Below, one piece after another: positions 53,618 through 57,699 of a stretch of 64,000 nucleotides of DNA (position 1 is its first letter; every line of letters starts with the position of its first letter). The position numbers were made by a program, and so were the translations under genes. The DNA is from Chloroflexota bacterium (GTDB taxonomy: Bacteria; Chloroflexota; Chloroflexia; Chloroheliales; Chloroheliaceae), in NCBI GenBank assembly GCA_902812345.1, contig CADDZM010000001.1, forward strand, positions 1 through 64,000, in the 5' to 3' direction. A model generated the notes under the pieces. That model ran no database searches. It saw only the letters and a list, made by a program, of their open reading frames with translations, and was not told the origin of the DNA.

Positions 53618-55348
53618 ATGACTAACGAGGATTTTGCCAGGGTTTTCATGCTTATTGGCGATTTGATGGAACTTAAAGGCGAGAACGTATTTAAGATTTC
53701 AGCATATCGCAAAGCCGCCGACACAATGCTCAATGCCCCTGAAGATGTCGCTACGCTCTGGAAAGAAAACCGGGTGATGGAACTGCCCGGCGTGGGCGAG
53801 GCTATCGCCGGGAAAATTGACGAACTGATGCGCACCGGACATTTGAAATTTCTCGAACGGTTGGAAGAAGAAGTGCCGCCCGACCTGGTGACGCTGCTAC
53901 AGGTGCCGGGCATCGGCTCGAAAACGGCCATGCTCCTTTACAAGCACCTGGGCATCAAGGGTCTGGGCGAACTCGAACAGGCCGCCAGGGAAGGCCGAGT
54001 TGCCACGGTCCCCGGTATGGGTGAGAAGAAACAGGACGCTCTCCTGAAGAGTATCGAGGCGCTTCACCGGCGCGGCGAGAATAAGACTTTGCTGGGGATT
54101 GCGCTGCCCTGCGCCCGCCAGCTTATGATGGACATGATAAAGGTTGACCCGAACATCAAACAGGTATTGCCTGTCGGGGCGGTCCGGCGCGGCGAGGAAA
54201 CAATGGAGACGGTCAGCGTGGTGGCTTCCACCGATGATACCTACGAGACTTTGCAGCATTTCAAGAAGCTGCCGGTTGTTGATGAGATTTTGCGGGAGCG
54301 CGACTACAAGGTGGAGGCCCGGCTTAAAAACGGCCTGAAAGTTGAGTTTATCGCCTGCTTCCCGGAGCAACTGGCAACGACCCTCGTTATGACTACCGGC
54401 ACCGATGAACACCGCCGCCAGTTGCGCGACATAGCCCGCCTGAAGGGTTACGAGCTAAGTATGGGCGGGTTTATCAAGGGTGACGAAATCTGGACCGCTC
54501 ACGACGAGGAAGAAGTCTTTCGCCACCTCGATTTGCCTTACATTCCACCCGAACTGCGCAAGGGTAACGGCGAAATCCAGGCCGTTCAGCAGGGTGAAAT
54601 GGCCCTCGACCTTGTAACTCTGGACGATATTAAAGGTGACTTGCACAGCCATTCGACCTGGAGTGACGGCACGGCCACGATTGAGGCGATGGCGCGGGCG
54701 GCGGCGGTGCGGGGCTATCGCTATCTTCTCCTGACCGACCACACCAAGAGCCTGGGCATCGTGCGCGGCCTGACCGAGGAAAAGCTGTGGCAGCAGCAGG
54801 CCGAAATCGCCCGCGTAAACGAAGTGTTGAGCGGCGAAGGCTTCAACTTCAAGCTGTTAAGCGGGGCTGAAGTTGAAATTAAGGCCGACGGCACGCTTGA
54901 TTTCAGTGACGAAGTGCTGGCGAAAATGGATATTGTAGTCTGCTCGTTGCATAGCAGTTTGCGCCAGGAGCGGGAAAAGATAACCGAACGCTTGATTCAA
55001 GCGATGAGTAACCCGAACGTTGATATAATCGCGCACCCGACCGGGCGTATCATTAACAACCGCGAACCGGCTGACCTGGATATGGGGCAGGTTTTCAAAG
55101 CAGCGCATGAAACCGGCACGGCCCTGGAAATCAACAGCGGTCCGGACCGCCTCGACCTTAAAGCCGAGCACGTCCAGGAAGCTCTTGAAGAAGGCGTAAA
55201 GCTGGTTATCAGCAGCGATTCGCACTCGGTCAGCGGCCTGGCGATGCTGGAATACGGCGTGATTACGGCCCGGCGGGGTGGCGCAAGAGCGTCCGAGATT
55301 TTAAATACTCTTGAACTTGACCAGCTTCTTGCCCAATTAAAGCGCTAA
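53618..55348 (+). CDS. polX: PolX-family protein with PHP nuclease domain and degenerate polymerase site
   Basis: 576 residues with bacterial PolX architecture. Helix-hairpin-helix regions include MELPGVGEAIAGKI, LLQVPGIGSKTAMLL and VATVPGMGEKKQDAL. A nucleotidyltransferase palm follows. The C-terminal PHP domain is intact: DLHSHSTWSDG (His343, His345, Asp350), LTDH (His375), GAEVE (Glu418), CSLHSS (His445), AHPTGR and SSDSHSV. In the palm the usual GD.D of active enzymes reads METVS, giving Thr198 and Ser200 in place of both catalytic Asp; the third Asp is replaced by Glu243 (VEFIAC). Polymerase activity is probably lost, leaving a PHP 3'-5' exonuclease or AP-endonuclease-like repair enzyme. 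The start at 53618 follows GGAAG; upstream GTG/TTG are less likely. It overlaps the convergent glycosyltransferase stop by four bases. Confidence 0.92.
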   Translation: MTNEDFARVFMLIGDLMELKGENVFKISAYRKAADTMLNAPEDVATLWKENRVMELPGVGEAIAGKIDELMRTGHLKFLERLEEEVPPDLVTLLQVPGIGSKTAMLLYKHLGIKGLGELEQAAREGRVATVPGMGEKKQDALLKSIEALHRRGENKTLLGIALPCARQLMMDMIKVDPNIKQVLPVGAVRRGEETMETVSVVASTDDTYETLQHFKKLPVVDEILRERDYKVEARLKNGLKVEFIACFPEQLATTLVMTTGTDEHRRQLRDIARLKGYELSMGGFIKGDEIWTAHDEEEVFRHLDLPYIPPELRKGNGEIQAVQQGEMALDLVTLDDIKGDLHSHSTWSDGTATIEAMARAAAVRGYRYLLLTDHTKSLGIVRGLTEEKLWQQQAEIARVNEVLSGEGFNFKLLSGAEVEIKADGTLDFSDEVLAKMDIVVCSLHSSLRQEREKITERLIQAMSNPNVDIIAHPTGRIINNREPADLDMGQVFKAAHETGTALEINSGPDRLDLKAEHVQEALEEGVKLVISSDSHSVSGLAMLEYGVITARRGGARASEILNTLELDQLLAQLKR

Positions 55349-56751: not shown

Positions 56752-57699
56752 ATGGACCGGCAAGAAATAGTTGTTTCAGAAATGATGCGCCAGAAGGTAG
56801 CGACCCTGGGCGAAACGGGCGAGCAATGGCTGATGGCCCTGCCTGCCCTTGTGGAAGAAATAGCGCAGGACTGGCAGCTAGAAGTGGGCGAAAGCCTTCT
56901 CGGCGGCTCAGAGGCTTTTGTAGCCCGCGCCACGACCATTGACGGCTTCCAGGCTGTCATTAAGGTCGCCATGCCGCCCGCCGAAGGGAATACCGTATTT
57001 GCCAGCGAAATAACCGGTTTAAAACTTGCCAACGGGCGCGGCTATGTCCGGTTGCTTCGCTCGGACCTGGACCGCCGGGCGCTTTTGCTGGAAGCCCTCG
57101 GCCCCAGTTTGCAAGATATGGGTCTTTCCAGCCGGGCGCAAATCGAGATTATCTGCGCCACCCTGCGCGAATCGTGGGTACGCGTACCGCTCGACACCGG
57201 GCTTTTCAATGAGGAAAAAGCAGCCCAATGGCACACAAAATTTATCGGCAGTTTGTGGCAGCAACTTGGAGAACCCTGCTCCCGGCGAGCCTTCGAAACC
57301 GCCCTGCTTTTTACCGAGAATCGCGCCAGGGCTTACGACCCGGCTACAGCCGTCCTCGTACATGGTGACGCCCACAGCGGCAACACTCTTCAAACCCTCA
57401 CCGAGGGTAGCGGGACGCGCTCGTTCAAGCTGATTGACCCGGATGGACTGGCCGCCGGACCGGCCTGTGACCTGGGCGTCCTGATGCGGGATTGGTTGGA
57501 CGAACTGCTGCCCGACCCGCTAAAACTCGGCCTCGAACGGCGCGACCTGCTGTCCCGCCTGACCGGGGCCGACCCGCAAGCGGTCTGGGAGTGGGGGTTT
57601 ATCCAGACCATGTCAACCGGTCTGCTGATGTTGCGGATAGGCGCGACCGGTCAGGGCCGGACAATGCTGCAAGTTGTCGAGGCGTGGTCCCGGGCTTAA
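56752..57699 (+). CDS. APH(6)/hydroxyurea-phosphotransferase-like kinase
   Basis: 315 residues. Catalytic loop VLVHGDAHSGNTL and metal motif KLIDPDGLAAGPACDLGVLM match the aminoglycoside/hydroxyurea kinase group (streptomycin 6-kinase relatives). The ATP-binding N-lobe is GGSEAFVARA...AVIKVA. Such proteins phosphorylate streptomycin or small molecules. A chromosomal copy without mobile genes does not prove resistance. Short spacing from AAAGG to the ATG. Confidence 0.85.
   Translation: MDRQEIVVSEMMRQKVATLGETGEQWLMALPALVEEIAQDWQLEVGESLLGGSEAFVARATTIDGFQAVIKVAMPPAEGNTVFASEITGLKLANGRGYVRLLRSDLDRRALLLEALGPSLQDMGLSSRAQIEIICATLRESWVRVPLDTGLFNEEKAAQWHTKFIGSLWQQLGEPCSRRAFETALLFTENRARAYDPATAVLVHGDAHSGNTLQTLTEGSGTRSFKLIDPDGLAAGPACDLGVLMRDWLDELLPDPLKLGLERRDLLSRLTGADPQAVWEWGFIQTMSTGLLMLRIGATGQGRTMLQVVEAWSRA

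Follow-up and report, generated by a model that had tools for sequence, protein, structure and literature searches.

A noncanonical polX-like gene was found in the window, a 64,000-nt stretch of DNA from a Chloroflexota genome, and its product very probably works as a Mn2+-dependent PHP nuclease on DNA bound by the protein core, with resynthesis carried out by another polymerase. The evidence collected here comprises the domain make-up, the loss of the polymerase triad and nucleotide pocket, an intact PHP site, purifying selection, and the lack of Ku and ATP-dependent DNA ligase; the exonuclease activity, the absence of synthesis and DNA binding by the core are predicted by analogy with characterized relatives. 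The initial annotation had proposed a nuclease that lost synthesis, which remains the best reading, and the same behavior has been published for noncanonical PolX of Deinococcus (PMC9226535). The gene belongs to this already published class, and the polymerase loss in itself is not a new discovery. What is new is that this member arose independently and lacks the deletions in the palm that are frequent in the class.

By profile match, the open reading frame (ORF) is a full-length bacterial PolX. It matched NCBIfam PRK08609 ("DNA polymerase/3'-5' exonuclease PolX") at 486.8 bits against a curated cut-off of 426 bits, and residues 11-585 aligned to positions 2-568 of the 571 in the profile. The best PDB matches were Thermus PolX (3b0y/3au2), followed by Deinococcus PolX (2w9m). 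The translation start is most likely the ATG at 53618 (MTNEDF...), giving a protein of 576 aa, since the homologues in two congeners begin at the corresponding ATG. A single PolX copy was present in the genome. Genes near it encoded a TPR protein, a glycosyltransferase, ketopantoate reductase, glyoxalase, an APH-like kinase, and a PmbA/TldD pair, and no repair context was seen among these neighbors. The protein encoded at 56752-57699 (+) weakly matched families of aminoglycoside/hydroxyurea phosphotransferases (APH_6_hur). The features of the gene are listed in Table 1.

Table 1. Features of the polX-like gene in the window.
Feature	Position	Strand	Remarks
Noncanonical polX-like gene	53618..55348	+	576 aa from ATG; start in the ORF list, GTG 53588
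N-terminal 8-kDa/HhH region, intact	53618..54067	+	Pfam HHH_8, HHH_5
Palm dNTP-pocket motif GAVRR	54176..54190	+	Thermus: GSARR (Ser to Ala)
T198-V199-S200	54209..54217	+	In place of D.D metal ligands
E243	54344..54346	+	In place of third Asp
MTTGTDEHR	54389..54415	+	In place of dNTP-pocket YLTGSKAHS / HFTGSKEHN
PHP nuclease domain	54638..55345	+	Nine metal ligands HHHEHHEDH; basic-path R477, R482, N506, R511

The pairwise alignment of the window protein with Thermus PolX (3au2) contained no gap from the GSARR motif to the third Asp, and residue numbers are therefore shared by the two proteins. In this numbering the triad changes were D198 to T, D200 to S, and D243 to E, which bears out the earlier claim that all three palm aspartates are replaced, with the precision that E243 is still an acid. 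Among 111 PolX of the canonical class, Asp was found at 198 and 200 in every sequence, and position 243 was Asp in 109 and Glu in 2. The D243E replacement is a conservative change: two acids are truly lost and the third is swapped for another acid, Glu being counted as acidic in the 2022 definition of noncanonical PolX (PMC9226535). The nucleotide pocket was also altered (S188 to A, Y/H258 to M, S262 to T, K263 to D, N/S266 to R). No conserved acid of canonical PolX was found relocated elsewhere in the palm. The Deinococcus control that the initial annotation had suggested is itself polymerase-dead, and 2w9m aligned with A/E/E at the triad. Palm acids that are invariant in the family were detected at E193, E194, and 197 (D/E). 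The first triad position varied within the family (T/M/V/Q), drift that is expected once catalysis is lost, and S200 and E243 were fixed. The palm spanned 95 residues, compared with 94 in Thermus and 81 in Deinococcus, and the fingers/thumb region 74 residues versus 73 in Thermus; by these spans, no deletion of palm or fingers, a frequent and not obligatory feature of noncanonical PolX, was present. The palm fold was assigned by alignment to solved structures; an AlphaFold model built from the window protein and two close relatives had a pLDDT of 47 and was of insufficient quality to be used.

The PHP nonet was complete (9/9 ligands) and the 8-kDa/HhH region was intact, as the initial annotation had stated for the HhH and PHP residues. 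Residues R477, R482, N506, and R511 matched, by motif context, R469, R474, N498, and R503, the Bacillus subtilis PolX residues lying along the path that leads to the PHP site (PMC6616362). At 37 columns conserved in at least 97% of the alignment set, the window protein had no change. Over the whole gene, dN/dS within the genus was 0.049-0.064; the PHP part gave 0.036-0.061 and palm/fingers 0.081-0.099. The dead palm is still under purifying selection and is less constrained than the nuclease part. A role of the dead palm in DNA positioning, suggested at the outset as a possibility, fits this selection and the title of a published Thermus study cited in PMC6616362, according to which the exonuclease activity needs both POLXc and PHP.

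Noncanonical PolX were defined in 2022 as the 27.5% of 2935 non-redundant prokaryotic PolX lacking at least one triad acid, and the full PHP nonet was kept in 98% of them; the PolX of D. radiodurans (AEE) and D. gobiensis (ARE) had no polymerase activity and a strong Mn-dependent 3'-5' exonuclease (PMC9226535). A polymerase survey from 2026 agrees with this description (PMC12926913). The window protein showed three traits of noncanonical PolX as described in 2022 (PMC9226535), namely non-acidic residues in place of at least one palm Asp (T198, S200), a substituted dNTP-binding site (M258, GT for GS at 261-262, D263, R266), and an intact PHP active site (HHHEHHEDH). It resembles the D. radiodurans protein (2w9m) in the substituted Asp triad, degraded pocket, intact nonet, full 8-kDa domain, and single-chain architecture, but has no deletion in the palm or fingers. 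It also differs from the noncanonical main group in its separate origin (p-AU 1.3e-6), and from the noncanonical PolX of the 2022 paper in that its genome has no Ku or ATP-dependent ligase. Compared with canonical PolX of Thermus thermophilus (3au2) and B. subtilis, the protein is collinear throughout, with the same domains and PHP site, but without D198/D200/D243 and the nucleotide-pocket residues. The actinobacterial PolX-like PHP proteins (PMC12926913) have likewise kept the nuclease and lost synthesis; the polymerase domain is missing there, whereas it is retained and conserved in the window PolX.

On the proposed function, the 8-kDa/HhH domains together with the inactive palm-fingers-thumb core would bind gapped, nicked, or frayed DNA. 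The PHP domain with Mn2+ would then strip blocked or mismatched 3' ends and cleave abasic sites, and resynthesis would fall to a separate polymerase, either Pol I or a LigD-type primase-polymerase (Prim-Pol) that the same genomes encode as a stand-alone protein. A literature search found no reported activity of any Chloroflexota PolX.

The two congeners, "Chloroflexi bacterium 54-19" and isolate RYN_336, carried the triads MSE and VSE, so that with TSE in the window the altered state is genus-wide (3 genomes). Sequencing error was ruled out as its source, because the congeners come from other assemblies. To the question whether Chloroflexota share the loss as a clade, which the initial annotation had raised, the answer is no: the altered state spans the genus, but across the phylum it was patchy, with many independent losses. 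Searches of the phylum and of the class supplied 152 Chloroflexota PolX copies for an alignment. A non-acidic triad residue was found in 48 of them, a biased frequency, since the ranking behind the sample was based in part on similarity to the window protein. The PHP nonet was kept in 151/152, counting 8 copies with Gln first, as in Thermus. A phylum tree was built by a quick method, with input restricted to the 8-kDa/HhH and PHP columns to keep the palm from grouping the sequences. On it the canonical/altered label required 14 changes, 11 of these being forced by well supported branches; a more careful 43-row tree gave 9 changes, 8 forced. Such counts give no direction, and the changes are read as losses because regain of the Asp residues and the pocket is implausible. 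In the 43-row tree, the sister of the window genus was L037, a canonical PolX with the triad DDD (support 99/95). Placing every altered sequence in one clade was rejected (p-AU 1.6e-9), as was uniting the window genus with the noncanonical PolX of Deinococcus and four from Alphaproteobacteria (p-AU 1.3e-6), the rows that stood for the noncanonical main cluster, with no Bacteroidetes sequence among them. The altered state of the window genus therefore arose separately from the Deinococcus/Alphaproteobacteria group. In four genomes of one family, canonical and altered copies occurred together.

Another genus of the family encoded a PolX homologue of ~485 aa with the triad QSE (L035:1468-2922, genome G153), which was the most unusual find of the analysis. 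G153 is most likely "Ca. Chlorohelix allophototropha"; L227-S17 of this species belongs to an order that used to be called "54-19" (PMC10972752). The homologue had no N-terminal 8-kDa domain, and an opposite-strand gene ends just upstream. Its PHP site read HHHELHEGH, with the ligands H440 (to L) and D529 (to G) lost and the conserved R477 replaced by C; 7 of the 37 columns conserved in at least 97% of the rest of the set were changed, all 7 in PHP. It was the sole copy with a broken PHP site among the 152 Chloroflexota PolX and appears, from its sequence, to be without any intact catalytic site. In the third genus of the family (G154, genome 94% complete), PolX was not found. A staged history in the order, from polymerase-nuclease through nuclease only (window genus) to no catalytic site (L035), is conceivable and, in our judgment, rather unlikely; the retained palm-thumb core would then be non-catalytic and bind DNA or a partner.

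Ku was not found in the genome of the window or in four relatives of the family (5 genomes, 91-95% complete), nor was an ATP-dependent DNA ligase, and only 2 of the 150 genomes of the class contained Ku. Because the genus lacks both, Ku/LigD end joining does not explain the window PolX. That the protein trims 3' ends for such non-homologous end joining (NHEJ) is accordingly extremely unlikely, even though noncanonical PolX co-occurs with NHEJ genes in published data, where a general NHEJ role was proposed, and a LigD-type Prim-Pol is encoded in the genus; at this completeness a single absence would be weak evidence, but five concordant absences are not. The stand-alone Prim-Pol was detected in 3/3 genomes of the genus (one copy at L178:1456-2565, minus strand; DLD motif read from the copy of the window genome only) and was not found in G153 and G154. 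Its nearest solved relatives were NHEJ polymerases and mycobacterial Prim-PolC; the latter acts in excision repair, where it fills short gaps (PMC7442782). Given the co-occurrence in this one genus, PolX possibly cleans the 3' end and Prim-Pol fills the gap, the hand-over between them being speculative. Within the class, altered PolX was present in 10/13 genomes with stand-alone Prim-Pol versus 21/58 without (Fisher p 0.012, uncorrected for kinship and with one family dominating), which is only a hint of a class-wide link.

The acidic E243 is a point against a nuclease-only reading, as residual Mn2+-dependent activity may persist. That the palm remains a weak or specialized nucleotidyltransferase, using replacement acids (E193/E194/E197, E243), would agree with the invariance of E193, E194, and the acid at 197 in the family and with the selection on the palm; however, Asp198 and Asp200 were invariant in all canonical PolX sampled (partly by class definition), the pocket residues are gone as well, and E194 is frequent in canonical PolX too (73/111). 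Moreover, D. radiodurans PolX (AEE), with two acids left, was inactive in the 2022 assays, though weak activity had been reported earlier (PMC9226535), and we regard a surviving transferase as very improbable. Similarly little probability is given to a decaying gene, on its way out of the family under relaxed selection after the loss of synthesis: the truncated L035 protein and the family genome without PolX point in that direction, but in the window genus all three genes remain intact, and strong purifying selection acts on each of their domains.

The window gene extends noncanonical PolX to Chloroflexota, a phylum that neither the founding paper (PMC9226535) nor the 2026 survey (PMC12926913) names in its main text, where "Chloroflex" did not occur; a literature search on PolX, Chloroflexi, and PHP domain found no paper. 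Loss of synthesis with PHP kept has come about repeatedly, by at least 11 changes on a single tree centered on Chloroflexota, and not mainly as one old event. As Ku is almost absent from the class, the nuclease role is set apart from Ku/LigD end joining. These results support what has been published on many bacterial PolX, namely that selection acts on end processing and not on synthesis.

Other forms of PolX were also observed in the phylum. Nine copies (L009, L012, L013, L015, L018, L023, L024, L026, L028), 8 of them from one family, formed a clade in which the third Asp alone was replaced by Gln (DDQ) and the TGSKDHN pocket was kept; these may be altered polymerases or PolX that have only begun to lose synthesis. 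In viral contigs searched with the PolX profile, only two short matches were obtained, in the fingers/thumb region. Further, four proteins of 332-348 aa (L118, L119, L120, L121) consisted of the PolX polymerase part with a DDD triad and no PHP domain; their genomes (G121, G041, G049, G024) also encoded a separate PolX-like PHP protein elsewhere, apparently a split PolX.
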